Shown here: piece by piece, positions 15,801-62,275 of the stretch
How positions within the stretch are numbered: position 1 is the first letter of the stretch
Layout: each line of letters starts with the position of its first letter
DNA from: Maylandia zebra
Taxonomy: Eukaryota; Chordata; Actinopteri; Cichliformes; Cichlidae
Direction of reading: 5' to 3'
Assembly: GCF_041146795.1 (NCBI RefSeq)
Contig: NC_135179.1
Location: 11,469,047 to 11,533,046, forward strand
DNA length: 64,000 bases
Program-made: the position numbers and the translations under genes
Notes under the pieces: generated by a model
Database searches by the model: none
Told to the model about the DNA's origin: nothing
What the model saw: only the letters and a program-made list of their open reading frames with translations

Positions 15801-18800
15801 GCATGCTGGGAAGAAGCACTTAATTCTCTTTTGACACACTTACTAACCATAGTAGTCAGAGGGGTTGCAGTATCGTGGGCAGGGGTGTCCCAGAGCAGTG
15901 AAGTAAGGCACCATCTCACGAGCTGCACCGCAGTAAACAGCTGAACCTGAAGACATCAGGACGACGAGGTCGAAGAGCTGAAAGATATCTGATCGAGGCT
16001 GGTGGACTGAAAGCAGGACCAGACGATTTCCCCGAGCCAGACGGGACAGTGTGATCACCAAGTTATGAGCGGTAAAGCTGTCTAAACCTGATGTGGGTTC
16101 ATCCAGGATCAAAATACCTGAGAGGGGAAATAGACCAATCTATCACCTCTGTTAAACCCTGTTCTTTATATAACAGATCTTAACAGTATGAGCTCGAAAA
16201 TAATAGAGGAATCATGATTGTTAAAGTCAGTAATTAGTCAAATGTGTTTGTTATTCACAGGAAGAAGTGTTACACTCGTGTCACTTCCCAGTAGTTTATA
16301 GATGTTCAGAAACGGTATGAAATACCCTGTTTAGAGCTGAAACATTTAAAACTCGCATAAACACAAAGGTTAAAAATGTTATATCTATAGTAACTTTAGA
16401 AGTTGCAATAAAAACAACATATATGACACTGATTACACTCAGATGCTAAATGGAAAGGAGGCACTGGAGGTGGGTTGCAAAGTGGCGTATAGAGGACACA
16501 ATTAAAATAGTGTGCCATATATAAAAGCTGCTGCTTGGATTGGGACTTCAGTTTGAGTCATTGCCCTGTCTTAACAACATAAATGACAGTTCAGGGGACC
16601 ACATTAATTAATCTCTGTGTTAATATCTCTCACCGGGGTTCCAGAGAAGCTGGACAGCTATGCTGACTCTCCTCCTCTCTCCACCAGAAACCCCTCTGAT
16701 GTAGTTGTTTCCCACCCTGGTGTGTGCACACTGCCGCAACCGCAGCTCTGCGATAACATCATCCACCTGTGACAGACAGCAACCAGAGACACTGTTAGTC
16801 ATTGTTATCTGGACACATACAAGCATTCTTATCATTTAACACGTGTTTGTTCAACAAAAACTCTGAAGAGTTTAAAAGGGCATGCCTTAACGAGAATGTG
16901 ATAAACATGCTGACAACGGCTCTATTATAAAATGGATAAACAAGAACCTGCCAGTCCAAACAATCATGCAAATACTGTTATGGAAATAGCTTGAGTCCCA
17001 TTTATTGACCAGTCTTAATCTTACCCTCTGGTCCCTTTGAGCCTGTGTGAAGTGAGTGGGCAACCTCAGTTTGGCAACAAAGGAGAGAGTCTCTCGGACG
17101 GTGAGGTGAGGAAGAAGCCGATCGTCTTGGCGGACGTGAGCGATGCTTTTCTTGACGAGCTGGGGCGTGTTGTGCTTCCCATTAATTAGAATCTCACCGG
17201 ACTTCATGATGCCTCCTTCATCCCGACAAGTTATTATGTCCAGCAGAGACGTTTTACCACAACCTGAAAACATATTGAATTCAAGACATTCTCATCTTTG
17301 CTTATGTTCAAAAAAACAAACCATAAGCAATATAGAACCGGAGAAATGCATCTATGAGTCTTCCAAATTAGCAGATTTTCTACTTATTTTTACTTAACAC
17401 ACATTTATTCTTCAAGAAAATGCAGTTTTTTCTTTACTGTTCTGGTGGAACAAAGCATATCTATTACTTTATTTAATAAAGCAATACTTCAAATCTTTGT
17501 GCATCACCTGAGCTGCCAATAAGGGCCAGCATCTGTCCGCTGTGGACAGTGAGGCTCAGCTTGTTGATGGCTGTCTGCTTATTTCCTTTAATTTCCCACG
17601 GCATTTTGAACTCTGACAGCCTCTCGTACCACGGGATCTGAGCTGCTGTATCCACCTGTGAACATAAACACATGTACACGATGAACACCTGCAGCATGTA
17701 TACACATGAACCAGTCAGGAGCTTGAGAAAACTCATGTAAGATAAGAGCAGGTGACCTATAGTTACCTCATAGCAAAGGTTTTTGACCTCCAGCACATTG
17801 CAGCCTCCGCTGTAGGTGAAGTAGAGACTGCTGTCCTCCTCAGATGAGAATAACTCTCTGTCTTGATGCTGTTAATGCGAAGCAAGCAAGTCAATAAGTT
17901 TCATACAGACCAGGATACATGTACTAAATGTTTTTATATATATAGACCTATATATACCTTATAAACTATGAGAAACAAGATGTTCTTATTTCAAAGTTTC
18001 AAATCAGAATTACAGATATGCTGATTTTACACCACAAAATTGGGTTTAGTTAGTAACAACAAACAGTACAGTAGATAATAAACCTGTGGCCACACATTAG
18101 TTGGATGTGATTAGAAAATGTGATTTTGTCTTTTGTCATTTAGTCTTTTATGGAAAAAAATTGTTACACGCATTAACTTGTGTGTTTGATTGTCTACCTG
18201 CGTGTGTCTGTTTGTACTGTATGTGCAAATATCTGCCTGTGTGACCAGAGTCCAATTTCAAATAAACCCAATAGTTCAGTTGCAGAAGAAAAAAAATACA
18301 AATGTTCAAATTGAGATTAACAGCATCCTGCCACTTAATCTAGTTTACATGGTGTAGATTATAACATACAGTTCTGTTTTAAAATTAACGACTTTTTTAG
18401 CCACACATCAAATTTGATCATTTATCACTCATGGAAGCTTCTATAAAATAATAATGTACTGGCTGAAAAAAACAAATACATATTTGTTTTTTTTTACTGA
18501 TTTTTTTTCATTGTATAGCAAAACGAGGTCGGACATCAGATAGATGTGAAAATGTGAGTCGTGAATGTAATAAAACAAAGAACGCAATTAATACATTTAC
18601 AACCAAATTAAGCCATTAAACAAATGAGTGAAAAATAATTTGATATTTTACTGAATGTATAAATTAATGAGACACTTAACTGGGCACGATCAAAAATATG
18701 TTACAAATCCTGATTTGAACACTGGAAGGAAAAAGGACCTGGATTTCAGTGCTGTAACTGGGAAAGCTTGGTCTGAAACTGGTAAAAGCTGCTGGCAAGC

Positions 18801-25144: not shown

Positions 25145-28100
25145 CCCAGGTGTAGTTTATCAGGACTTCAGTCCTCTGGGGAGGATGGAGGGTCTCAGTC
25201 CTCATTCAGGATTAAAATGCCCATGAACACACTCACACACACACACACAGAGTCACACACACAGAGTAATGAGGAGTTCCCATTCGGTGACTCTCCAATC
25301 AACCAGGAAATGAATTAATCTCACAATTAAAGTATCTGCTAATTCCACTCTGCTTTCATAATGCGAAGAGCCAATCTTTTAATTGTCCTAATTAGAGTAA
25401 TTAACTAAAAAAAAGAGAACTCACTTATCTCCGCAAGTTAAGTCGGCTCCACAGAGAGTCCTGCAATGTGCCACTTAATAAAAAGTACATCTGAGAGTTT
25501 TTACTTAGAAGGAAAAAGTTATTGTCCTGCCTTTCACTTATTCTCAGTGTTTCACTGCGTGACAAACCTGCAGTGACAGCAGTGATGTCATTGGGATGCT
25601 GTCGTTGCAGGGGTGATCCTATTGGATGAGCCGACCACTGGTCTGGACAGCATGACCGCCAATCAGATTGTAGTGCTGTTGGCAGAGCTGGCCAGGAGAG
25701 ACCGTATCGTCATAGTAACTATCCACCAACCACGCTCTGAGCTCTTCAGGGTGGGTTTTTGAGAAGAACTGGTGAAAAAGAGAATGAATGGCTTGTAGAG
25801 TCAAACTCACACCTATGTGCCAACATCAGCTACATTTATCTAACTCACAGCTAAAGAACTTGTTTTGTTTTTTTATCAGAATTACACCACTTCATATATT
25901 AGACACATATTAAGAAAACATTTTGGTTACACTGTACACATGAGTCTTTGATCCTTTGATAGTGAATGTTTTGTGAAAAGTTGCATGCTGATGGAATCAA
26001 AGGAGCTTGAAAAGGAAAGCGTCTGGACTTCTTTAAGTTGCTTGAAGACGTTTCACCTCTCATCCGAGAAGCTTCTTCAGTTCTAAGGTCAAATGGTGGA
26101 GAGTCCCAGATATAAACCCAGTGGGAGTATCCCGCCAAAGAGGGACAAAAGGACCCCCTGATGATCCTCTAATCATCTGAGCCAAGGTGGGAAACTGGGC
26201 GTGGGTCCCAATCAGCCAGGGTTTCGAGTGAGCTCATTGTGAAACCTGGCCCCACCTTATCATGCGAATTCCTGAGGTCAGATGGCCCAGGATGTGAGTG
26301 GGCGTTAAGGCGTCTGGGGAGGGAACTCAAAACTGGATTATAGATGGCAGAGAGTTGGTGTCGTAAACCACCGCCTGTGTTCAAAGATGGTCACTCACAG
26401 TGGACATAGATGGCTTCTTTCACTCCTCTTTCAAACCATCTGTCCTCTCTGTCCAAAATGTGAACGTTGACATCCTCGAAAGAGTGTCCTTTATCCTTAA
26501 GATGCAGATGGACTGCTGAGTCTTGTCCTGTGGAGGTGGCTCTTCTGTGTTGTGCCATGCGCTTGTGAAGTGGCTGTTTGGTCTCTCCAATGTAGAGGTC
26601 TGGGCATTCCTCGCTGCACTGTACAGCATACACCACATTGTTAAGTCTGTGTTTTGGAGTTTTGTCTTTCAGGTGAACCAGTTTTTGTCTGAGTGTGTTG
26701 CTGGGTCTGAAATGCACCGGGATGTCATGCTTGGAGAAAACTCTCCTGAGTTTTTCTGATACACCGGCTACATAGGGGATGACAATGTTGTTGCGTCTGT
26801 CTTTCTTATCCTCCCTCGCTGGTGTCTGATCTTCTTTTCTGTGCCTCTTTGCTGACTTTATGAACGCCCATTTAGGATAACTGCATGTTTTGAGTGCTTC
26901 CTTTACATGTGTTCCTTCTTTTTTCCCTTCAGGCTTAGAGGGAACATGTTCTGCCCGGTGGTGTAGGGTCCTAATCACTCCAAGTTTGTGTTCCAGAGGG
27001 TGATGGGAGTCAAAGAGGAGGTACTGGTCCGTGTGTGTGGGCTTCCGGTAAACTTCGATGTTGAGGTTGCCGTTCTCTTCAATGTGCACAGCGCAGTCCA
27101 GGAAAGGCAAACAGTCGTCCTTTGTGTCTTCCCTGGTGAACTTGATGTTTTCATCCACGGCGTTAATGTGCGCAGTGAAGGATTCCACTTCTTGTGTCTT
27201 GATTTTGACCCAGGTGTCGTCTACATATCTGTACCAGTGGCTGGGTACTCTTCCTTTGAAAGAGCCAAGAGCCTTCCTTTCCACTTCCTCCATGTAAAGG
27301 TTGGCTACAATAGGTGACACGGGGGAGCCCATGGCACAGCCATGTTTTTGTCTTTAGAAGCCTTCGTTGTATTTGAAGTATGTTGTGGTGAGGCAGAGGT
27401 CTAACAGTGTGCAGATCTGATCGGGTGTGAAGTTGGTCCTGTCTTCTAAGGAGCTGTCTTCTTGTAGTCATTTTCTGACAGTCTCCATGGCCGCTGTGGT
27501 GGGTATGCAAGTGAAGAGAGAGACTACATCAAAGGACCCCATGGTTTCATCTGGGTCCAGGGTAAGTTTCTGAACCTTGTCGGTGAAGTCGGTGGAGTTC
27601 TTGATGTGGTGTGGGGTGTTCCCCACGAGAGGAGCAAGGATGGTAGCAAGGTGTTTTGCAATGTTATAAGTGGCTGAGTTTATGCTACTGACTATGGGTC
27701 TGAGTGGGACACCTTCCTTGTGGAGGTCAGGGGCCAGGTTTCACAATGAGCTCACCCGAAACCCTGGCTGACTGGGACCCACACCCATTTTCACACCTTG
27801 GCTCAGATGATTAGAGGATCATCAGGGGATCCTTCTGTCCCTCTTTGGTTGGGGGGGGGGGGGGGGGGGGGGGGGGGATACTTCCACTGGGTTTAAATCT
27901 GGGACTCTCCACCATTTGACCTTAGAACTGAAGAAGCTTCTCGGATGAGAGGTGAAACATCTTCAAGCAACTTAAAGAAGTCCAGACGCTTTTCTTTGCG
28001 AGCTCCTGTGACAACGATGACTGAGAACCTCCACAGACATGCTGATGGAATAATATTGTTTCTTTGTGTGTGTCTACCTCCAAGGTGTTCAACAGGATAG

Positions 28101-31100
28101 CTATAATGAGTCGTGGGGAGCTAGTATTTTGTGGACAAACAGAAGAGATGGTGGATTTCTTCAGCCAATGTGGATATGAGTGTCCAGAGTACTGCAACCC
28201 CTTTGACATCTATGGTACAGTATGACAGGACCCAGCACACTGCACGGTGTTGTGTTTTTATTATAAGTCTTCTTTTTTTTTTTAAAAAAAGATGATTTTT
28301 CCATAGCTTGAACATTAAAAATTCAATTTGATGTCAAACAGTTGACTTCACCTCAGTGGACACACGCAGCAGCGAGAGGGAGGCAGCCACATTCACTCGC
28401 ATGCATGAAATCACTTCAGCCTATCAGAGGTCTACCATCTACCAGAGCATGCTGGAAAAAATGGAGCAGAGCTTGCAGAGATCAGACAAGCCCGCCATAC
28501 CCTTTAAGAGCAAAGAGTCACCCAGCGGTGCTGCCAAACTTGGAGTTCTCCTCAGGTCAGTGTGCTTGTACACACCACCCATAAATCACTATTTAAAACT
28601 GAAATATGATCACAATATTCCAGGTACAAATTACAAATGTCACTTAGTGTGCTGCTTTATAAAAGACATGTAACATATACAGATTACTTCCATGCATCAT
28701 GATGATTTTTTTGTAGGGTATCAGTAGGTAAAACATTTGCTCATTAATTTTGCCTTTCTGTTCTGTGTGCAGGCGCACAGTAAGAAACCTGTCCAGAGAC
28801 AGGATGGGTGTTCTGATGCGTCTATCCCAGAACCTGATTTATGGTCTGTTTGTGGCCTTCTTCGTCATACATTTAGACATCGACGTCACTAAGGGTGCTG
28901 TGCAGGACCGCATCGGCATAATCTATCAGAGCATCGGTGCTTCACCATACACGGGCATGCTGAACGCCGTCGCTCTCTGTGAGTTCCGCCAACACCAAAC
29001 ATCTGCTCACCAGGATGAATTAGTACATTTACATTTGCACGTCCCAAACACCAGGATGTTGCCTGACAGTTTTATATTAAAAAAAAAGAGGAAGCTGGAT
29101 AAAAACTTTGAGTCAGTAACTTGAAAACATGATTTTTTTCTTATTCAAAGACTAAATTAAAACATAACTCAGAAGCAGCTTTGCTCAGTGCTAGTACTGA
29201 CTCTTGATTCAGGATAATGTTGGCTTCCTTCTCTTGGACAGACAGATCCAATGAAGAGCTAATAAAAGCAGTTTCAACACTTGGAATCAACTCCAGATTC
29301 CTTTATCCGCTTATAGAAAACACACACACACAGAGGGATTAGGTATCAATTAATTTTGAACTTCTGAAAATATCTCAAATTGACTTTAATTCCTAATCAG
29401 CTAAATGCAATACTCTTGTTCAAACCCTTGAATTAAAGCTGAATATCTGCACTTCAATGACATCGTGACTAAATTGCACTGTTTGACCACTGTGGTGGTG
29501 TACCGAAACAAAATCACAAAAAATGTATCACTGTTTGAAAATGTATGGACTTAACTGTATAAAATGCTGAAAATAACAATTAGACAAGACAAAAGACAAA
29601 ATGTGAATGTCGACTTTGTTGTCCATACATTCACTTAATCTATGTGACGTTACAGCACATCTCTGTGCATGTTTCTAACAACACTTAATCCACAGGAGGT
29701 GGGTACTTGTTAGTTCTGTGAAATGGATATGAGGCATGTTTATCGCAGCTGTGTGTGAGGCCACTTCCCCCTGATTCAGTTGTAAAATCACTTTAATTTC
29801 TTACTTACTTTTGTCACCTTTGGCAAAACTGTGTAAAGTCTAGCTTAATCTTGGATGTTAAAGGTATGTAGACTATTGGAGATAAGAATACATGAAAGAA
29901 AAAATGTCTATTAGAAGACCGTGCATGAAGTCATACTTTAGTTGCTGAGGAGATCCTTCAGTTTACATATTTGAAATGATCATTGGGTGTTCATGACCTT
30001 TAATCTGTTCAGAGCTCAATGAACCCGAGTGCCATTTTACCTACAAACCTAGAGAACCTACAATACAGTACAATATTGTGTGCACATAGATTTCCATGAT
30101 TAACAGTTTTATGGGTTTTTTAATAATGCATGCTTTGACTTAAGATAACATCAAATACAGGGAGAGAAAAATTTGCACTAAGTCTCCTGTCAGCATTTTA
30201 TAAACTACAACCACAGCAGTGTCTTGATCTTTTATAGAGGACTTGTGACCGCCTTTTAACCCACTTTATTTTTAATGTCAGAGAGATTTATGATTTTTAT
30301 TTGTGGTTTAACAAATAATTTGGTCGTTAGTGGCTTTGTTCAATATCTGGGAGACTTATTTAATGAGTGAAAAAGTAAGGTTAAGAAAAGGACAACAATC
30401 AATAGACAAAATAAAATACAACTATTTCCAAAAAGGCTCTATTGGAATGTGAGTTTCAGTGATAGGAATGGATGAATGAATCATCTTGGCTGTATTTCCT
30501 TACTGTCGGTGACACCCTTCGTCATTTACAAGGTTTTATCAAAACATAATAAAAATGTTCCAGTTCTTGCCAGATCTGACAGGTAGAGATAAACCTCAGA
30601 TGAAAAACAACACTTGACATATCACACAGTGTCATCATATAGGCCAGAAAGCAGAAGCACTTTGTAAAAAATTGAGTACACCATGATTCAGTAGCTTGTA
30701 AAACCACCTTTAGCAGTCTTACTACATCAGTCTCTCACACGGAGGGATTTTTGAACACTATTCTTTACAGCATTGCTTCAGTTCATTGAGGTTTGCAGGC
30801 ATTTGTCTCTAGAGAGCCATTCTGTTAGAGATTTGCTGCTGAGCTTGGGATCATTGTCCTATTATTCTGTTAGCCAAGCTGTAGCTGTAAGACTGTCAGT
30901 CTGACTCAAACCAAATCAAATGCCCTCCACTCCCACAGCTGACAGTTAATAGGTGTTTGTGTGGATATGTTGTGTTTGGATTTCTCAGAATGTGACACTG
31001 TGCCTTACAGCCAAACATCTCCACCAAGGACATTGTTCCAGATGTCTCGTGGTGTCTTCAGCTGCAACTTTAAACCTACAGTACACTGTGCTGCCATGTA

Positions 31101-43824: not shown

Positions 43825-45954
43825 ATTTAATGGTAGAGAGGGGTTAATAATATAAGACACGCTCATGGGGCTCATATCACCACCTTCAAACTGTTCACCT
43901 GCAACACCCGCCCCCTCACCCCACACAAAAGAGGATTTCACACCACCTCCTCCGACCACAACTCTTCATATTCATGAAGCAGATGTGAGGAAGCAGTTTA
44001 GGAGTCTGAATGCTCGGAAAGCTCCCGGCCCAGACGGTGTGTCTCCTGCCACCCTCAGACACTGTGCAAACGAGCTGGCCCCAGTGTTTTCTGGCATCTT
44101 CAACTCCTCACTGCAGGCATGTCATGTGCCTGCCTGCTTCAAGTCCTCTACCATAATCCCTGTCCCCAAGAAACCTAGGATCACTGGACTAAATGACTAC
44201 AGACCCGTGGCTCTGACATCTGTGGTCATGAAGTCATTTGAGCGCCTAGTTCTCTCCCATCTCAAGACCCTCACGGCCCCCCTCCTGGACCCCCTGCAGT
44301 TTGCATATAGAGCCAACAGGTCTGTAGATGACGCCATCAACATGGCCCTACACTTCATCCTGCAGCATCTGGACTCCCCAGGAACCTACGCCAGGATCCT
44401 GTTTGTGGACTTCAGCTCTGCCTTCAACACCATCCTTCCAGACCATCTCCGAGACAAGCTTTCCCAGATGAATGTGCCTGATCCCATCTGCCGGTGGATC
44501 ACTGACTTCCTGACGGACAGGAAGCAGCACGTGAGGCTGGGAAAGAATGTCTCGGACTCCCGGACCATCAGCACCGGCTCCCCTCAGGGCTGTGTTCTTT
44601 CTCCTCTGCTCTTCTCCCTGTACACCAACTGCTGCACCTCCACCCACCAGTCTGTCAAGCTAATCAAGTTCGCAGATGACACCACCGTTATTGGACTCAT
44701 CTCGGACGGGGACGAGTCTGCCTACAGGAGAGAGGTTGAACGTCTGGTGTCTTGGTGCAGCCACAACAACCTGGTGCTGAATGCCCAGAAGACAGTGGAG
44801 ATTATTGTGGACTTCAGGAAGCACACAGCCCCACTCCCCCCCATCATCCTGACTGACACCCCCATCACCTCTGTGGACTCATTCCGCTTCCTGGGTACCA
44901 CCATCACCCAGGACCTGAAGTGGGAGCCCACCATCACCTCCGTCATCAAGAAAGCCCAGCAGAGGATGTACTTCCTGAGGCAGCTGAAGAAATTCAACCT
45001 GCCAACACGGACGATGATGCAATTCTACACTGCAATCATCGAGTCCATCCTCACCTCCTCCATCACCGTGTGGTACGCTGGAGCCACTATCAGGGACAAA
45101 CAGAGACTGCAGCGTGTTGTGCGCTCTGCTGAGAAGGTGATTGGCTGCAGACTCCCATCTCTGCAGGACCTGTACACCTCCAGGACACTGCGGCGTGCAG
45201 CCCGGATCTCAGCTGACCCTTCTCACCCTGGACACAGTCTGTTTGACCTGCTCCCCTCAGGCAGGAGGCTCCGGTCCATTCGCACCAGAACCTCTCGCCA
45301 CAAGAACAGTTTCTTCCCCTCTGCTGTTGGACACATGAACAATAACCACATGATTGTCCCCGCCACTAACATATGACCCTACGCTGTGTAACTGCATCAT
45401 TTCATGTTTGGCACTGATCACCACCTGCACTCATGTATATATCTTTCTACGTAGCACTCATAATTCTTATTCTCATGTATATATCTCATGTATATCTCAT
45501 GCACATATCTTTCTTTCTACATAGCACTTTAATTCTTATTGTCTGCACTGAAGCACCGCAGCAATTTCCTAATGTTGTAAACCTCAACATCTGGCAATAA
45601 ACCCATTCTGATTCTGATTCTGATATGACACCGAACATTAGGAATGACCCATTTGATGAATGCTGAGCATGTGTTCACTCATCTCCTGTTTGATAAGCAT
45701 CAATTATCAGTCCAAGATACTGCTCACAGACTCACCTGTCAGTGCTCGGTCATCATCTTTGAACACAGCCATCCTGGTCCTGTGTAGCGTTTTAAAAACG
45801 CCCAGAACCTGTATTCACAAACAGGCAGCTTTTATAACAGCTGTGAATGATGCTACCAGTCACCTGCAATTTCAAGTAACATGCAAGCAATGTTGCAATA
45901 AAGGTATTTAAAAAGACGATAATATCCCATACTAACCTTCAAACGAGTGCCCAT
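42347..45954 (-). CDS. LYRM7: LYRM7, complex III assembly factor
   Basis: LYR-family matrix protein (MZM1-like) that chaperones the Rieske iron-sulfur subunit before its insertion into respiratory complex III. Five exons in transcript order: 45937-45954, 45736-45808, 42766-42836, 42594-42675, 42347-42417 (stop 42347-42349). Phases agree and give 315 nt, 104 aa, the length of the human protein. Sequence: MGTRLK, then VLGVFKTLHRTRMAVFKDDD (LYR-type helix with the conserved hydrophobic and Arg pattern), AARLKINEEFRKNKNETS, LIKMGSDVDIVLRQSVVQ, and RPRNDLLLENVPYCDKP at the C-terminus. Start is the first Met and joins exon 2 in phase. Intron 2 is 2.9 kb because of a LINE and an AT repeat. Divergent from HINT1 as in human. 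Confidence 0.94.
42837..43745 (-). other. LYRM7 intron 2, left part
   Basis: 900 bp with no exon. Around 43160-43300 the text resembles a dispersed fish repeat (catcctcaatcattcaggta), but I cannot assign a family. Confidence 0.4.
43746..43819. repeat. (AT)37 microsatellite
   Basis: Pure AT dinucleotide run of 74 bp just before the 5' edge of the LINE. Confidence 0.97.
43840..45625 (+). mobile_element. 5'-truncated LINE of the L2/Rex1/CR1 type
   Basis: A single open frame of 503 codons (43865-45376) covers a reverse transcriptase. It has the RT entry motif RKAPGPDGV, VPKKPRITGLNDYRPVALTS, LFVDFSSAFNTI (motif A), STGSPQGCVLSPLLFSLYT (motif B), IKFADDTTVIGLI (motif C with the catalytic Asp pair) and the C-terminal SLFDLLPSGRRLRSIRTR. 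The endonuclease half is missing, so the copy is truncated at its 5' end. A short 3' UTR ends in an attctg repeat (45604-45622), typical of Jockey-superfamily LINEs. The RT frame is intact, so insertion is probably recent. It lies antisense in LYRM7 intron 2. Exact clade uncertain. Confidence 0.85.
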
Positions 45955-51729: not shown

Positions 51730-51747
51730 CACTGTAAAATCTAATTC

Positions 51748-52045
51748 GTTCCCAGAACTCAAAAAAATTGAGGAAACTCGTTGCCTCAAAAAAACTGAAT
51801 AAAGCTTAGCTAAAAATGACTAAATTAGGACAACTTGTTTATTTTGAGTACTCCGTACAAGCTCATATGTTCCCAGAACTCAAAAGAAATTGGATTAAGT
51901 TTACGTAAGATGACCAAGTTAGGGCAACTTACTCATTTTGAGTACACTGTACAGCCTTGTTAGTTCCCAGAACTCAAAAAAATTAAGGAAACTCATTGCC
52001 TCAAAAAAAAACTAAGTAAAGCTTACTTAAGATGACTAATATTTC
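51748..52045. repeat. Three tandem subterminal repeats of the large transposon
   Basis: Units starting at 51748, 51869 and 51963 each open with gttcccagaactcaaaa and repeat tgactaa or tgaccaa and ttttgagtac blocks further in. Spacing is about 121 then 94 bp. Such subterminal repeats usually bind transposase in CACTA elements. Confidence 0.85.
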
Positions 52046-52888
52046 AAGTCTGCAGTATTAAGAATAACTTGATATTTCTGACTGTACAGTGCTAATTGTT
52101 TACCTACACTGAAAAAAAATTGGAGTGACATTTACTTAAAAAAAGCTAGGCAACTTTTTCCACACAGAAAGTGCTTGTAATCTTTACTCGGGCTATTTCT
52201 AAGTAATATTTACTTACTAGAACCATCTATTTTTTATGTGAAATACACAAGTAAATTGCACTGGCAATACTCATCTATAGGTTGTAACTTTTACTCAGAA
52301 TACCATTGCATCCAATTACAAAACCCAAGTGAACATTGCTGATATTTCTTTGTGTTTCTTACTCATCTTTTCTTTGTTATATTCTATGTAATTATTAAGT
52401 AATATTTATTATGAATGTACTAGTTAATATTAATCGAATTGAATAAATATTCTTATTATTCTATTAAATAATAAATCAATATTTTCCAAAACAAATATTT
52501 GCAGCTTAAGAGACACTTATTTCACAGTTGAAATGGCATAGATATATTTAAAATATCTACATAACATTATAACCACAAAAAACATGGCCATAGAACTTCT
52601 TGATCGCAAATTTCAAAACAGAGCATATACACATATACAAAAACAAACAAACATGCTATTCAAAAACTCAGTGTGCACTGTCCCCTTTCTTCTAATCAAC
52701 TTTCAGAACACATACATCAACTCTGTCCATTAACAGTTGCAATCACTACCTTTGCAGACATTCTCAGAACGTTCAGGACAGAAAGAACTTGTATAAAACT
52801 GAGCAACATTTGAAATTACTGTCAGAAAACAGACAAAATGCAAACAAATTAATTGTACTGGACAAAAGCACAAATAATACTGGAACAC
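52046..52888. other. Transposon 3' flank of the SAMD3-like gene
   Basis: AT-rich non-coding sequence between the subterminal repeats and the last exon. The splice-like gtgagt just after the stop at 52889 leaves open a further exon, but none is recognised. Confidence 0.5.
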
Positions 52889-55800
52889 TCACGCTAAAAG
52901 TTTCTTGTGGAGAGACTGGACCTTTGGTGACATTTTAAGGATGTCAAGCTCAAGAAACAGCTTCTGAAATGCCTCAAACGTATATTTCAGTTTCAGTGGG
53001 TAACTTAAGTTGACAGCATAGATGACACCCATGAGCAGGAGGCAAGCGTTTGTCACACTTCCGCAGTCCTCCAGAATTTCTGTCCCCTCAATGATGACCG
53101 ACACGTTCACAGGATCTTGGTTTTCCTGTGCCACATTGGGATGGATTACGATGATCTTCATCATGTGATTACTGCAGTCCTCTTTCAATGCTTCTTGGCT
53201 GACGTCCTCCTGTGAAAACAAACAAACCACAATTAGAAATAACTAGAATAGATTCCAAGTAAAAGAAAAGGTTAAGAGAAAAAAAATGTAAAAATAAAAA
53301 AGAGGTATACTCAATTTAGTATACTCAAATCAAACAATATTCATATGGCACTTTTCATACGTAAAGTTACAGAACGTGCTTCACAGAGGCTGACCCTGAG
53401 ACAAAGAAAATCCCTTTTGGGGGCCATCCAGCCTGGAGCTGTCCATGGGACGGCACGCGTGTTGGTAGACCAGAACCATTAAATCATTAAAATAGGTTAT
53501 AAAGGTATAATCAAATTAAATACTCTTTTGCTCATAAAATAAAGTTAATAAGTGATCGTTAAATAGTCAGAAAAAAACCAGACAAAAGGCAAGTTAAAGT
53601 TTAAGGCAGATAAGATAAAGATTAAATATGATTTAAAAAATAAAGGGTAAGAGCATAAAGATTTAAGAAATTAGTTAAAAGCCTGATTGAAAATATTAAT
53701 CTTGAGTCTTTTTTAAAAAACATCACGAGTGTAGAGAATCTTTGACCTTCAATATATCATCACAAGTGAAGACCAGATTATAAGGTTAGACAATTTTAAT
53801 ACAGTCATTATGATCATCAGATACCTGATGGTCTTTGATCAGCTCCTCTCCACTCTCTCCAAGATACTCAACTAAGCAACGAATGATAATGTCCCTATTA
53901 AACCCAAAAAGAAAATTTATTGCAGAAAATACACAACATAACATATGTAACATACATACATAACAGCACATACAGATGTAAACAGAAAGTTACCCATGGA
54001 GAATGTAAGCCTGCAGCTACATTCTAACGTTGTGAAGTGTACAACTTAACATGAATTTCTCAACGATGTGTGTTAAGACAAGAGTCCAGTGCATGTCATA
54101 ATCTGTGGGTCCAGAAACTGTCTCTGCCCAGTGAGGAAAGTTTTCTGCCTCATCACTGGACATGCAAATGAATTTTTTGCAACATATCAGTACCTCCTAT
54201 CACAATATTAACCAGTCAAGGACAGGAATTCCCACACACAAGAGTAATATTTTGGGAAATAATTGTATTGGAGTCTATGGGCAGCAGGAAGGGATCTCGC
54301 TGCACTCAGAGGGTCACTTTGAAAATTCTGTAAATTTCTCTGCTTTTGAGCGCATATTAAGGGAGAGATGACAGGTTTGTATACACTTGTAGAGACAATC
54401 ATGTGCATAAATTGTTAATTGTGGCCACAGTGTCAGGATCAGGAGAACAGTTTCAGCCAACACAGACACTGATCAGAATAAAGGACAAGTTCAGTATTTT
54501 ACACTTAAAGCCCTGTTTTCAGTTTATGATGAAATCGAACGATTTTGATTGAAATTTGGACACATGCTGCTGGCCCGAGCTTTTTTGGTTTCTGTGGTAG
54601 CACACCCCCACCTCCACAATGGCTTCATAGGTGCACTGGAACAATCCTTCCTAAAACGCATAAAACTGTCGTTTACAAAGACGTGAAACTCACCGAGTGG
54701 TCAGAAGTGTTCACTGATATGTTCACACAAAAATCGCTGCAAAAGATACTTTCCAACTGGTTTTTATTGTAGTTTTTGTCCAACTCCATTGACTTGTATT
54801 AGATGTGCTGTGATGTACGGTATTAGTCCGCCGCTATTCCATTCTATTATTCAAGCTCTCGGCGGAAGAATGTACAGGTGTAAGGCGTTTGAAAAAATAG
54901 GTCCAGTTTTACAACAAATGGTAAAACACCTGTTGGAAAGCATTTTTGCAACGATTTGTGTGTGAACATATCAGTGAACACCCCTGACCACTCGGTGAGT
55001 TTCACGTCTTTGTATGAAGCCATTGTGGAGGTGGGGGTGTGCTACCACAGAAACCAAAAAAGCTCCGGCCAGCAGCATGTGTCCAAATTTCAATCAAAAT
55101 CGTTCGATTTCATCATAAACAATCTGAAAACAAAGCTTTAAGTTTAAAATAACAAACTTGTCCTTTAAATAAGAGTGATACATTCTCAGTGTGTATGACC
55201 TCATCTTTTCCATTAGATTATGTAATTAAAATAATTTAAAATTTTACCTTATTGAGTGAGTCCAACATTGGTTTTATTTTGGTCCCTGCAGTCCCGCCCT
55301 TCCTTCGAAATATCTCCAGGAGTTTGGTGGTGTACCCGTCCAATCTGGACAAAAACGTTCGCTCCAGATGGATTGTGGTTATTCGCTTAAACTCCTCTTT
55401 GATCTGAAATGAGAGATAAAACACAAAATCATGTCAAAGATGACTCATGAGATCTCACATACACTTAGTTGCTGCATGAACAAGAACTGGATTTACCTGA
55501 TTTTCACAGAACAGAGAAGGCCACCTCTCTAAGAGGTCTTGGATTGCGGGGCAATCCTTGACAACCTCTTTTCTTCTCATAGCGAAAGACTTCTCCATTT
55601 TCTCATTAATTGCCCTCTCATTGTTCTTCTTCTTCATTTCCTTCAGCAAATCTAGTCTCTCCATCTCTAAGGTTTCCTCAGTCTCACCGAATGGCAGTGG
55701 TGGCAGATAGTTGACTTCAGCTTTTTTGGCCCTTTTAAAGCCTTTAAGTGAACCCTCTTCACTGGAGCATCGTCTCTTCAGTGTGTTCACCTCGAGCTCT

Positions 55801-56519
55801 GGAATGGCTAATTGGCGACCTCTTAACTTTGCCCTGTAGTTGCCCATTTTATACTTTATCCTCTGTTGCCAACCATATAGGCCATTAAAAGACCCTGGCT
55901 CTTTGAGGCATGGGTATTTTGCTACCAAGGCTTCAGCAACAGCTAAAATCTGGACACCAGTTGGATATGCTGTGAAGCCAAATATAGTCTCTGCAAGCTT
56001 CTCAAGAATGCTACTAGTTACGCTTGGGTTGTTCAAAAGTGTGCCATCATTTTCATAAGCTTGCTTTCCTGCTTCCAGTGCAAGGTCTATATCATAAGAG
56101 AAGTCTGGTATTTCAAACTTAAATGGCCATGGCTTAGACCTGTAGGATGGTCCACTCTCATCTGGGGAGGACAACAGGATTGTGTCGCATACAGATGAGG
56201 AGGAGCTTGCTTCTGTAGATAGTGGAACTGGAGATTCGACTTCTGACATGTCCACAGTAGTGAGACTTAAGATTACTGGTTCAGTTTTTACTACTTTGAG
56301 GTTAGCTTTATCTTGTACTTCCTCAATCGAGGTCAAAGTGAAGAACTGACCATCGAAATCCATGTCCTGGTACATAACAGTGAATGGTCCTGTAATATCA
56401 AATGTCTCTCGAAGAACATCATTGAGGTCCTGAAGTGTGCTTGGGATGCCTGCAGGTAAAAGTAGTTTGTGGACATCATCCTCCCCAAAAATTATCCGCA
56501 GTTTCGCTGAGGGTGCCAT
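52889..56519 (-). CDS. PB1-like, SAMD3-related protein carried by the transposon
   Basis: Four exons in transcript order: 55497-56519, 55248-55403, 53825-53894, 52889-53209. An N-terminal PB1-like domain (residues about 1-85: LRIIFGEDDVHKLLLPAGIP, TVMYQDMDFDGQFFTLTSIE) is followed by a Ser-rich linker and a long conserved region (GWQQRIKYKMGNYRAKLRG, KKAEVNYLPPLPFGETEETL, ending YTFEAFQKLFLELDILK). Fish genomes hold many annotated copies named SAMD3-like or uncharacterised; no SAM domain is visible here. Exons 1-2 and 3-4 join in phase, but 2-3 do not and about ten residues of the family seem absent, so an exon is missed or lost there. Start at MAPSAK follows a likely 5' UTR acceptor at about 56534. 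A foldback element sits in the intron between 53894 and 55248. Function unknown. Confidence 0.65.
53318..53470. repeat. Dispersed repeat fragment, unclassified
   Basis: The phrase tcatatggcacttttcatac followed by acgtgcttcacagagg resembles the opening of common fish repeats that start beside a Phe-rich 'tatagcacctt' block. Assignment is weak. Confidence 0.3.
54480..55166. mobile_element. Foldback element with long inverted arms, 687 bp
   Basis: The left arm (54480 to about 54735) is repeated in inverted orientation from about 54905 to 55166 with high identity; for instance gaaatttggacacatgctgc at left and its complement at right. The left arm has an extra 46-bp block (about 54630-54675) missing from the right. 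The outer ends read aaggacaagtt and aacttgtcctt, and TTAA stands at the right edge. Non-coding; inserted in an intron of the SAMD3-like gene. Confidence 0.85.
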
Positions 56520-56590
56520 ATCAACAGGAAGAAGCTGCAACAACAGAAGAGAAATACAGACATTTATTCACAAGCTTCTCTCCTCACATT

Positions 56591-59228
56591 TCAAAAAGAT
56601 AGGCAAATGTGGTGCTTTAAAGTTGTCAGGCGTCTTCCTGCAAGGGTGTATGAAGCCAAAGGATAAAAATCTTTAAGCTCTCTTTGCTCAAGTAACTGCA
56701 CACTCACTGTGTTCTCCAGCTCATAACTCCTCAGGTGTTCATTGTACCATGTATTTTGTTGTCTCACGAAAAAAGTCAGTTTGTTACAAATCACCATTAT
56801 CTGTAACACTTCAGAAAAGTCAGGCAGTCCTGCAGTGGAACCACAACACAACAACATTCCCACTGCATAGTTGGTGCCTAAACTGCACACATTATTGGCA
56901 ACATGCACAGCTGTAACAGCAGGGAATCTGCATTTCACCAGGTCTTTTAGATCATCCTTAAGCACATCTAAAGAGACCTCTGTTGTTTTTGTGACTGCAA
57001 GTGATGGTTTGACAGAATGTGATTGATGATATGCAACCATGAGCTGGTGCTTATTTGCAAGAGACAGCAAAATATTCCTGAAACAACCAGTGTGTCTTAC
57101 CACCTTCTTGAAAAAGCTGTGTTTGGCCTCGAATCTCATTGTCCAGAGGGCAGCTAGGGGGCCAAATTCCCGAATGAGCTGAGGATAGTGCTCAAGGAAA
57201 TGGTGCTTGGGAATGAGCTTATGTTGGGGGAAAACATCAAGGAATCTGCTTCGGTGTTCTGAAATGATGCTGTCAAGATAGCAAATGCTTTCTTCAGTAT
57301 GGGCTCGAGACATGACAAGGTCCACAATGTCTTTCAGTGTCATCAGCATCTGCCATACAGGCTCTTGTTGGGGTACTTTTAAACCTATAATCAGAGGCAA
57401 AAGACGCAATAAGCACCAATTTTCATGTGCGTTGCCCCCTACTGATTTTCGAGTCGAAAAGTTAGCAGGAATGAGATGAGGGCGATTTGTTTTATCACTC
57501 CACTTGTATGGGAAATTGGAAATGGCATCATTCAGTTCCATGAGAGAAAAATATTTTTTCTTGATCAAGTTATCAAATGCCAAAGCCAGTTCCACTGGAA
57601 CAATGCCCTCCAGCAGATCATGTAAAACATCTGGAGGGTAACCAGATGTAACATGAAAATGCTCAAGTTTTTCTGACAATGCACACTGTTTTTTTACACC
57701 ATAACAATGAGGGTGATCTGGACTAGACACAGCTGTCTGTACATGCAGTGTATGTTGATCTTTGGTTCTTTGATGAAAAGACCCAGATCTCACTTCATTG
57801 GACTGAAACTTGGATCGCTCCCCAACACAAAACCGGCAGATGTATGACCCTGCAAAGCTTTCGACAAATCCTGCCACAGAGTGCGCCCCCAAATTATCTG
57901 CCACCACACTGACCACAGTCCCTTTAATGGCTTTCCCTAACGCTGGAACAAAAAGACCATCTTTCTCCAAGCTTTGGATATCTGTTAACAGTGGCTCTAA
58001 AACTCGCTGGAATCCAAACTGCTTGGTGTCTTCAGCCTTACACAGAATTGCAAGGTAGATTGATGTCAATGTGGGACGTAACTGCACCGGAATGTTTCCC
58101 AACACCCAATAGACAGCTGTGACTTTGTGCTTTTTTTCGAGATGTCCCAAGAGGATTACATACCTCAAAGTCATCAATGTACAGGATGAGACTCACTCTG
58201 TTCTCCTCTACAGAGAAAAACTTGTTTTGATAGTGAGATCCATCACGAAATGTCTGGTACTTAAAGTCATTTTCAGTTTTTTTTTCACCTTCAAATGTGT
58301 TTTCTTGAAAAGACTTACTTAGGACCTGCACCAAGGAGGGCAATATTGGGACATACTGGAAGGTTTTGCCCTTTTTTTTATCAAGTATGTGTTCTTCTGG
58401 TTCAACAACTGAAAAATGCTTCTTCATAAATTCTCTTCTCTTGTAATAAGTTGTGAAAGGGCCACCTGTCCCCAAGGCAGTACTTATAGGGTGTGTCTCA
58501 CAAAGATTTTTCACTAAATCTGAGATAATGGCTGGATCCAGATCACAGTTATGGCTTTTCAAGGTGGACACCACCACATCTCTTAAAAGTGGACCAGATG
58601 CAGAGGTGGATATAAACTGAAGCTCATCTACCATTTCATCAATGCATTTGTTTGGGACATTGAACATGCTTTCTAACTTTAAAAATAGATGGCCAAATTT
58701 CTCTTTTATATCTTGAGACAACTCCTGTGGTTCCCCATCCCAAAGCTCTAAGCTCTCTTCCACATAGGTCTCATCCTGAGCAAACATGGGTTCATTAGGT
58801 TTGCTTTTTAATACTTCAGTTTTAAAATCCTCAAGGGTGTGTGACTGGTGTTTTCTGTGTCTATGTGTAGCAAAGGTGGAATAAATATTTGTACTGAAGT
58901 TGCAGTCTTTGAAGACACATGCAACTACTTCAAACTTCCTTAAGTGGTTGTTAAGATGCTCAAAATACTGCTTCTCTGAATTAAAAAAAACAGAGCAGCA
59001 AAGTAGACAAGTAAATGAAAGAGGTCCACTTTGTGTGACCATCTTCACATGGTGTCGAGACAAATGGGTCTTAAGGGCATTAAATGTTTTAAACGAGCAA
59101 GGGCAATCAGTGTGAAGACAAGGGACTGACTGGCTGCGACCACCATTTCCATGCTTTAGTCTGTAGTGTTTTAACAATCCCAACCTCTTCTCTGACTCAA
59201 AGCTACATATCTTACACATCCATCTCAT
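56591..59228 (-). CDS. Zinc-finger transposase-like protein, two overlapping frames
   Basis: Start ATG 59228, stop 56591-56593. The first frame opens with four C2H2 fingers (about residues 1-130: CKICSFESEKRLGLLKHYRLKH, CPCSFKTFNALKTHLSRHH, CLLCCSVFFNSEKQYFEHL, CNFSTNIYSTFATHRHRKH, the last two imperfect) and runs to YIDDFEVCNPLGTSRKK. The second continues with KHKVTAVYWVLGNIPVQLRP, VVADNLGAHSVAGFVESF, GYPPDVLHDLLEGIVP and WTMRFEAKHSFFKKVVRH. The acidic blocks IDDFE, ADNLG and RFEAKH are candidate DDE residues as in Transposase_21-type (CACTA) enzymes. The frames meet at an A7 tract on the minus strand (58131-58137) where a one-base difference separates them: an inactivating change, a sequence error, or programmed slippage. 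Multi-copy relatives are known in fish. Confidence 0.7.
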
Positions 59229-59339
59229 GTTGTGGCACCTTAGACAGACAAATTATGTGACAAGTTAAACCTAATCGTTACTAATTTGATCTTACCTTGT
59301 GGAGTTCAAATTAGCAGTCAGAAGGTCCTATGTTCTGTA

Positions 59340-59375
<36 letters not shown>
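59340..59375. repeat. Poly-A tract (plus strand)
   Basis: About 35 A in a row just upstream of the transposase-like start (a poly-T in its sense). Confidence 0.95.
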
Positions 59376-59376
<1 letters not shown>

Positions 59377-60280
59377 TTATCTATATGCTTTTCAACTAAT
59401 TTCTACTAACTCAAGGATGCACACTGATATTATTATTATTTTTTTTTTTTTTTACATATGTTAGTTCGGTGGCAAATTTAAAACAGGTCAATATGAAGAC
59501 TTGAGTGAAATCGAGTGCGTATATCGTTTTTTGTTTTGTTATTTTTCGTCATGCTCCGAATGCAGAGAAGGTGGCCATATTCACTGATGTCACTCCATTA
59601 CATTTTACTTGGAAATATCAACTAATTAAGCCAATGAATTGGTTTAGTGAATATTACTTGGATCGAATGATTCAATTTACATACAAAACTGAGGACACAT
59701 AATTACAAACAATCCTCAAGTAATGCACTACAAGAAAAACTATTTTAAAGTAATAGCACTGAATTTGTATTTTTTTTGTAAAATTTATATAGCTAATTGA
59801 AATAATAATTACAGGGCCAAAAAAACATTTTTTTCAGTGTACTGACAAACATTTCATGTTCAACTAAATGAAAAACAATTCGTGGTAACCTGAATATGAT
59901 TAAAAATAATTAACAACACTTTTTGTAAGGATGTTAAAATCAGACCAACTTTTATTTTCAAACACAACAAAGTATAACAGCCAACATACTGGACACTGTT
60001 CTGCTGGACAACAAACAATTATATTGCCATCACTGTTATAATCTTACAATGAAACAAAGTCTCAGATTTAGTTATTCTGAAAATAAGTTTAGGCCTACCA
60101 CAAGTTTGTTTTGTACTTACATTACTTATATAATCAAAATAAAATATTTGTTGTTCTGTCACAAATGCAGTCTCTAATTTAAACAACACATTTGTTTTGC
60201 ATTCCAACACATGAGCTGGAATGTTGTAATATTTTAAGGATGGCTTGTTTCCAGTCCAGGCATTACTGCCTGAATGACTA
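59376..60280. other. Transposon non-coding segment
   Basis: AT-rich, no gene recognised. A second cagtg-containing phrase (tttttttcagtgtactg) at 59830 could be a minor or ancestral terminus-like motif but has no partner. Confidence 0.4.
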
Positions 60281-60753
60281 TCATGGATCGAGGTGACCCA
60301 AATGTAGGTGCAGAAGAAAGTCTTTAACTTCCCTTAAGTACAGTGGCAGTGGATGTGGGTTGGAGATGCAATGAGCTTGAACTTGCAGGCGACCATCTTC
60401 ACTGACCACACCATCTGTGACGGAGGACTCATCTCTCCTGTTGTCCTGCAAGCAAACAATCATATTTTTTGGAACATGAACTTAATTGCTTTCTTAAAAC
60501 ATTTTTTTCTGCATTTGGTATAAAACAGACTCCAATTTGGACAATCTCAGGCTCCCTCCCCACCGGAGAGGTGATATTCAATGTCCCAATTGTCAATCTG
60601 GATAGCCGTGACCACCACCCAACACACAATAATGTCATGAAAGCATCATTTTAATATAAATGTCACTGACAGTTGCTAATATATTGGAAAACCAAAATAC
60701 TTACCACTGAGTTGATGTCTTTCTGTCCAACAGCAGGAGTGCTGGTCCCGAGC
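60281..60753 (-). CDS. Possible third small transposon gene, two exons
   Basis: Two exons in phase: 60705-60753 then 60281-60445, joined across gtaagt and a ttgcttgcag acceptor. They encode LGTSTPAVGQKDINSV, then DNRRDESSVTDGVVSEDG and LPLYLREVKDFLLHLHLGH before the stop at 60281-60283. Upstream exons are not located and no family is recognised. The C-terminal end resembles the closing helix of small fish transposon-linked proteins, but this is weak. Could be non-functional. Confidence 0.35.
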
Positions 60754-60932
60754 CTCAAAGACAGAAGCAAGCAGAGGGAGAAAAAAACAGAACATTTTTC
60801 AGAAACCGATTTGATCCTTAATGGCTGTGCAATCATTGTCACAGAGTTTGCTTATGTTGTTAAATAAAGGCTAGATTTGACATTAATAGATGCCACAGAT
60901 GTTCAAGGTGCCACAAAGCATGAAAAAAATGG

Positions 60933-61300
60933 AAGTCTCGGAAAACGTCGGGGCATTTTTGCAAATATGTGATGTCTTGATAAATCGAGCAGATATTTGA
61001 ACTTTCGACAGCTACATTCTCGCCTGAAAATATCTTAAAAGTTGATTTTGTGACCCAGAAAAGGTAATAAGTTTTTTAGCTGTGCTCCTCCGCCATTGCC
61101 GCGCTTACAAGTAGCACAGGCTCCGACAACCGTGGCCGACATATGCGATCCTCCTTTTCCCCAGATTACCCTTTTTGGGTCACAAAATAACCTTTTAAGA
61201 TATTTTCAGCGGAGAATGTAGCTGTGTAATGCTCAAATATCTACTTAATTTATCAAAATATCACATACTTGCAAAAGTGCTTCCACGTTTTCGGAGAGCT
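60933..61300. promoter_or_regulatory. Large imperfect palindrome, putative transposon promoter
   Basis: The arms 60933-61068 and 61165-61300 are inverted repeats of about 136 bp (for example cagctacattctc and gagaatgtagctg). The 96-bp loop is GC-richer than anything nearby and holds cgccattgccgcgc. It lies upstream of all the minus-strand genes of the element. Function is inference. Confidence 0.6.
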
Positions 61301-61840
61301 CTGTTATCCACCAGCGCGATAGCTGACCGGGAGGTCAAGGCTTGATAAGAGTCCGCGAGTCCTGGCTTATTGTTTTCAAACCCCCCTCCGAAGAATTTTG
61401 TCTGGGCCCTTATCTCACTTTTTTTTATTTCAAACAATCAACAGAAAATTTCACAGACATATTTTTATATAAGGTTTTTAAGGCTGTGGTGTTAATTTTT
61501 AAGTAACATGAGCCCAGCCGCAGCAGCAACGCTAGGCTAACACTAACTAGCTAGCTAGCACGATTATAAACCTGGTGCTAAACTAAGAGAAGCCACAAAA
61601 TCAGTTTGAATAAGAGTAAACATTTACTCACCAAGTCAGTGTATCAGGTAAAGATCCACAGCAATGACAACAATAATCTCTTGAGCTGACGCTTTTCTAG
61701 GTTTGCTCAACATATTCCATAAAAAATGCTGGCACCATGAACATGCGGACTGATCCGTGCTAGGGAGGAGGACGGTAGTGACGTGGCATTTTCAAAACAC
61801 ATCTTTCATCCTTCCGCACTGAGAAGAAAAACTTCCATCT
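61301..61840. other. Right non-coding part of the large transposon
   Basis: A GC-mixed stretch with a tandem ctagctagctag near 61545-61560, then AT-rich sequence leading into subterminal repeats with actcaaataaattgagt (61869-61885). No gene seen. Confidence 0.4.
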
Positions 61841-61951
61841 TACTTAGTTTTTCTAAGTTAAGAAAACTCAAATAAATTGAGTTTATCAGCGTTTTTGCAT
61901 AAAATGTACTGGTAAAACTTATTTAAATCGAGTTCTAATAACAAATTGATA

Positions 61952-62275
61952 AAAAAAACTGAGTTCAGCCTATTTAATATTTTTAATTAAACACAATATT
62001 ACATTTTACAGTGTACTTTTAAATCACTATGGAGCACCAGCATTTCTGTAGAGGACAGAACCACCTGCTTTAATCTACCATGATGCTCTGTGTTATGTTG
62101 CCATGGCAATATGAAAAAAACTGAGTTCAGCCTATTTAATATTTTTAATTAAACACAATATTACATTTTACAGTGTACTTTTAAATCACTATGGAACACC
62201 AGCATTTCTGTAGAGGACAGAACCACCTGCTTTAATCTACCATGATTCTCTGTGTTATGTTGCCATGGCAATATG
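61952..62275. repeat. 162-bp tandem duplication spanning the transposon right end
   Basis: Units 61952-62113 and 62114-62275 are almost identical, with about two substitutions seen. Each contains ttttacagtg, the CACTG-type end, plus about 100 bp of flank with gttgccatggcaat. Confidence 0.95.

Follow-up and report, generated by a model that had tools for sequence, protein, structure and literature searches.

The Spm element of maize expresses two proteins, TnpA and TnpD, from tnpA and tnpD transcripts made by alternative splicing. Both proteins are required, and TnpA binds to the subterminal repeats (PMC2613891). The same paper describes the helper proteins of plant CACTA elements as sharing little similarity among themselves. 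The transposases of EnSpm, Mirage, Chapaev and Transib have as their hallmark a C(2)C and an H(3-4)H motif between the second catalytic D and the last E, a pattern that also enters the definition of CMC transposons (PMC12730594). A third point of reference is the PB1 domain, which a 2021 review characterizes as usually not associated with transposable elements (PMC8616336).

Here we describe a transposon in a 64,000-nucleotide stretch of Maylandia zebra DNA (the window; C13:11469047-11533046 of a 962-Mb, 63-contig genome, the one genome to which all our genome-wide counts refer). An earlier note on this DNA had proposed a 10-kb CACTA-like element at window positions 51730..62013, with a transposase-like gene and an accessory gene labelled PB1/SAMD3-like. 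The locus is a defective copy of a two-gene CACTA/EnSpm (CMC) transposon with narrower borders. We lean, with modest confidence, towards a model in which the accessory gene would encode a TnpA-like cofactor and the two genes would share a promoter and be expressed by alternative splicing.

Borders and ends of the element

The transposon, a member of the family that we call F1, lies at positions 52107-59839 on the minus strand (7,733 bp), as determined by comparison of copies and by reading of the ends. In Blast comparisons, homology of the window to four near-identical F1 copies is confined to this inner part of the interval reported earlier. Moreover, the insertion point has an empty counterpart elsewhere in the genome: L063 (C7:60531800-60534550), a copy of the surrounding repeat, is unbroken across it and has a single TA.

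Ends were examined in 11 copies from four families, among which F1_C5 has lost its 5' end. Ends of the CAC..GTG type with short inverted repeats, starting with CACTG or CACTC, were found in 10 of the 11 copies and in all four families, the CACTC form being that of families F2-F4. All ten copies with both ends have CACTG or CACTC termini and a matching 2-bp duplication (eight TA, one TG and one CA), the feature for which the earlier note had suggested checking other copies. CACTG ends enclosing both genes, as described in that note, are confirmed, but at 52107/59839 and not at 51730/62013.

A single 10.3-kb element extending from 51730 to 62013 is almost certainly wrong. The sequence CACTGTAAAAT at 51730 does have a well-matching inverted counterpart at 62013. 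However, other copies stop at the inner borders, the empty site has one TA, and the outer flanks differ (TT versus TA). The outer repeat forms a family of its own. Position 51730 is the left edge common to the window repeat and L063, and likeness to L063 continues beyond 62013 to about 62435. Position 62013 is not established as the partner of 51730. The surrounding older repeat belongs to a high-copy family (2,741 first-look candidates, of which 40 were scored). The possible third small gene, which we took to be the open reading frame at 60019-60333, falls outside the true element.

The window copy is defective. It is about 416 bp shorter than F1_C2, mainly through a deletion near the 5' end, its transposase is split across two frames, and accessory exon 3 is shortened (Table 1). 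This copy alone is unlikely to be autonomous.

Two genes and their shared history

The transposase has the expected architecture. Four C2H2 fingers, already recognized in the earlier note, lie ahead of the first catalytic D in the representatives of all four families checked by pattern (F1_C5, F2, F3 and F4). By pattern checks and alignment, all 25 copies have the second D, the C(2)C and the HH pattern, and 24 of the 25 have the last E; the single missing E probably reflects the truncated frame of family F10. Because of the CACTG/CACTC ends, the 2-bp duplications, the C2H2 fingers and the D-D-C(2)C-H(3-4)H-E motifs, we assign the element, on sequence grounds, to the DNA transposons of the CACTA/EnSpm (CMC) kind. 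Pfam likeness of the transposase is weak. With E values up to 1 accepted, three of 16 members resemble Plavaka (best 0.0022), two DUF4218 (0.034) and two Transposase_21 (0.14). Viral contigs gave 425 and 30 pattern matches for the two proteins, with no relative of either confirmed.

The non-transposase gene that the earlier note placed beside the transposase is indeed there, adjoining it downstream on the same strand and comprising four coding exons. When F2 is compared with F4, DNA is conserved at both termini, over a single short 5' stretch, across the transposase and in the exons of the accessory gene. PF00564 (PB1) matches 7 of the 16 accessory members at E values up to 1 (best 6.6e-5), and by this criterion the N-terminus is a PB1 domain. 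The other half of the earlier label is unsupported: a SAM domain is not among the ten Pfam families matched by the 16 members (E up to 1), in a scan that lacked exons 2-4. Exon 4 scanned alone had no Pfam match. Pfam recognizes no catalytic domain in the accessory protein, and the alignment contains conserved basic patches. In a PDB profile search the best row, with an E value of 0.0078, was that of an engineered cytochrome trimer, whose single stretches score 54; we found it unconvincing and rejected it. One accessory intron contains a foldback (54479-55167) with 108-bp arms that are 99% complementary and with further arms inside and outside these, also visible as an inverted repeat in four F1 sister copies.

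The two genes are closely linked across the genome. Searches with two query families per protein, once merged, yielded 87 transposase loci and 116 accessory loci. Of the transposase candidates, 81 of 447 were scored in one search and 83 of 438 in the other, and for the whole genome every locus count is a minimum. At 80 of the 87 scored transposase loci the 8 kb downstream contain an accessory gene in the same orientation, at 77 of them within 2 kb; the median gap is 320 bp. Among pairs up to 10 kb apart, none has the wrong order or orientation. The first count had been 74 of 80; the second family's proteins paired one of the other six and contributed seven further loci, of which five had a partner and two had none. 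The earlier note had named independent occurrence of the two genes at unrelated loci as evidence against its proposal. For transposases the count speaks for pairing; on the accessory side 35 of the 116 loci have no scored transposase, a figure that would if anything overstate the lone accessory genes because only part of the transposase candidates were scored.

Accessory exon 4 has 150 scored matches among 669 candidates, exceeding the number of accessory loci. This surplus suggests internal-deletion derivatives that keep only the 3' part of the element. A derivative of another shape, L062 (C5:33163900-33167000, minus strand), has a single open frame of about 579 amino acids that joins the transposase finger region, in frame, to the middle region of the accessory protein and lacks the catalytic core. 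By its layout, L062 could be a repressor.

Both genes have descended jointly across families. We reduced 25 copies to one per family and dropped F10, whose transposase frame is truncated. Protein distances of transposase and accessory protein over the resulting 16 families are strongly correlated (Mantel r 0.87, a value that none of 10,000 permutations reached), and the two protein trees agree on the well-supported groups: F2 and F4 with F3, F7 with F16, and F5 with F6. Alignment A1 was made without F3 and alignment A2 without F10.

The accessory gene is also under purifying selection between families, as judged from ratios of nonsynonymous to synonymous substitution rates (dN/dS). A finite dS was obtained in only 17 (accessory) and 23 (transposase) of 289 between-family pairs, and the two least saturated were used. 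In these two family pairs, dN/dS of accessory exon 1 is 0.255 (bootstrap 95% interval 0.193-0.354) and 0.164 (0.112-0.235), and that of the transposase 0.143 (0.107-0.189) and 0.104 (0.073-0.137). By part, with domain limits set by hand, the accessory values are 0.18 and 0.13 for PB1, 0.56 and 0.34 for the linker, and 0.22 and 0.14 after the linker, which makes the linker the least constrained part. The main claim of the earlier note, an accessory gene conserved across copies, is borne out as far as one genome can tell: it agrees with the linkage and order of the genes, the ends with 2-bp duplications and the purifying selection between families.

The arrangement of the two genes bears on how they may be expressed. 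In F1 about 57 bases separate the transposase stop codon from a 3' splice acceptor just before the accessory start. Since so short a gap offers scant space for a promoter, we infer one shared promoter, with splicing choosing either the transposase exon or the accessory exons. Under a strict rule, 11 of 17 families have an acceptor just ahead of the accessory start codon, versus 14% at random places; under a looser rule, counted by copies, in 17 of 25, versus 18% at random. The acceptor suggests alternative splicing of the kind that yields tnpA and tnpD. Moreover, repeated 9-mers are in excess within the outermost 300 bp of either end in four of four families (0 of 200 shuffles in each).

Table 1. 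Coordinates of the element, its predicted genes and the surrounding repeat, in window positions
Feature	Position	Strand	Remarks
Transposon F1	52107..59839	-	5' (transposase) end at 59839; ends CACTGAAAAAAATG / TTTTTTTTCAGTG; from copy comparison, end reading and empty site
TA target duplication, one side	52105..52106	.	From end reading and empty site in L063
TA target duplication, other side	59840..59841	.	From end reading and empty site in L063
Transposase, first open frame	58038..59252	-	Encodes four C2H2 fingers plus the first catalytic D; motif check in F1_C5, F2, F3, F4
Transposase, second open frame	56591..58192	-	Second D, C(2)C, H(3-4)H and last E; frame broken from first part in window copy
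Accessory coding exon 1	55497..56519	-	Predicted PB1 domain in roughly the first 80 codons, 56280-56519
Accessory exon 2	55248..55403	-	From splice signals and conservation with F2, F3, F4
Accessory exon 3	53825..53894	-	Window copy 20 bases short at 5' side versus four sister copies
Accessory exon 4	52889..53209	-	C-terminal part
Older repeat, left edge, outside transposon	51730..52106	.	Host of the transposon insertion; edge shared with L063
Older repeat, continuation outside transposon	59842..62013	.	Extends beyond 62013

The older repeat has structure of its own. It includes an inverted repeat with 133-bp arms, 84% complementary (60936-61297). A 162-bp tandem duplication, 98% identical, occupies 61949-62272 and includes the CAGTG at 62013 plus sequence past it. 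Elsewhere in the window, exons of ABC transporters, presumably like ABCG8/ABCG5, are present on both strands (13469-13801, 16887-17291 and 28732-29124, the third below the Pfam cut-off). There are also two reverse-transcriptase open reading frames, 26391-27353 and 43856-45376, the former of which we take to be Penelope-type with a GIY-YIG-like tail.

Proposed role of the accessory protein

We propose that the accessory protein would collect on the subterminal repeats. There it may oligomerize through its PB1 domain, bringing both ends together for the transposase. It may also tune expression of the element. Of the two roles raised in the earlier note, we favour an aid to transposition over manipulation of the host, by analogy with Spm.

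A number of observations weigh against this picture. The PB1-like label, which applies to some accessory members, does not extend to the window's own protein, which taken alone has no Pfam match, PB1 included. No Pfam DNA-binding family was found among the 16 accessory members. A Forkhead-like winged helix in the middle region was considered and set aside, its PDB profile E value of 0.49 being non-significant and without support from Pfam, and two single-sequence structure models of the window's accessory protein are too poor to use (pLDDT confidence scores of 46.9 and 45.0). The splice acceptor is absent by our rule in 6 of 17 families. The 9-mer excess includes the terminal repeats themselves and is narrow in F4 (26 versus a shuffle maximum of 25). 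F11 and F12, sisters in the transposase tree (100/99), are separated in the accessory tree, where support is weak. Accessory pairs within families differ at 0-4 synonymous and 0-7 nonsynonymous sites, with dN exceeding dS in some, too few differences to judge selection either way. The unpaired accessory loci belong on this side as well, as do the seven transposase loci of 87 without an accessory partner within 8 kb. At two of these seven (C21:22235829 and C22:19181175) accessory exon 4 matches about 3.5 and about 4.7 kb downstream on the same strand, and at C15:26642576 an accessory match lies 17.6 kb downstream; at C1:38795030, C24:815015, C9:33740707 and C11:3802677 no accessory match was found downstream.

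Could the accessory protein be aimed at the host instead, countering silencing or tying the element to a host complex through PB1? We consider this possible, if on the unlikely side. PB1 domains commonly bind other PB1 proteins, and a protein lacking a catalytic domain known to Pfam would suit such a task. Other elements offer a precedent in the TET/JBP dioxygenases of fungal EnSpm and further transposons, which are thought to help evade methylation (PMC12730594, where it treats these enzymes). However, no host partner or target of the accessory protein is known, and the splicing layout and subterminal repeats fit an Spm-type helper at least equally well. That the protein is mainly a self-regulator, repressing the element's own promoter or competing with the transposase, strikes us as quite improbable. 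TnpA of Spm does also act as a suppressor (PMC2613891, in its account of TnpA), and the deletion derivative L062 has a layout able to repress. Nevertheless, the near-transposase level of constraint and the linkage at 80 of 87 loci exceed the needs of pure repression. The idea that the second gene is passive cargo, a host gene captured without a role for the element, is very hard to sustain. It can draw on the 35 accessory loci without a scored transposase, but that number is inflated by the partial scoring of transposase candidates, and purifying selection, co-descent and a fixed order over 16-17 families all contradict it.

Returning to the TnpA-like cofactor, a more specific form of the proposal is that head-to-tail polymerization of PB1 on the subterminal repeats pairs the ends in a PB1-based transpososome, and that vertebrate SAMD3 may descend from the accessory gene, with SAM replacing PB1. 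Taken together we rate these two ideas as improbable. The SAM domain is another head-to-tail polymerizing module, and we know of no other element that pairs its ends through a PB1 polymer. The descent of SAMD3 from the accessory gene is an assumption of ours.

Comparison with known systems

The closest parallels are maize Spm/En and the other plant CACTA elements with tnpA and tnpD. They share with the fish element the combination of a transposase and a helper, putative in the fish, in one element, the CACT ends, the subterminal repeats and a splice layout suggestive of alternative splicing. By contrast, Spm/En makes 3-bp duplications and the fish element 2-bp duplications. The C2H2 fingers of the fish transposase also set it apart from plant CACTA, and the accessory protein has a PB1 domain and no Pfam likeness to the plant helpers.

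EnSpm, Plavaka and ESTA, of the CMCT clade, resemble the fish element in having C(2)C and H(3-4)H between the second D and the last E, CA..TG ends and duplications of 2-5 bp (PMC12730594). Three of the 16 transposase members have a weak Pfam likeness to Plavaka. The accessory gene of the fish element is not a TET/JBP gene, and its probable kinship with this clade is judged by motifs.

A PB1 domain linked to a transposon-derived gene is also known from the domesticated plant transposases MUSTANG-B (MUGB), as described in parts of PMC3435246 and PMC8616336. MUGB is a plant host gene in which PB1 and a MULE transposase are joined, whereas in the fish PB1 is in a separate gene inside mobile elements.

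To SAMD3 the likeness is one of label only; no SAM match was obtained in the 16 accessory members. Fish annotations presumably use the SAMD3 name for open reading frames of the accessory type, and 'SAMD3-like' gene models of this type would be transposon genes.

A PB1 accessory gene in an animal element is in no title among the open-access literature matches listed, a scope that leaves Repbase and subscription journals outside. A two-gene CACTA element is a known kind, and a PB1 accessory gene in an animal element appears to be new. As a second gene of CACTA type in an animal, linked and selected over 16-17 diverged families, it gives a testable case of unrelated proteins in the TnpA role.

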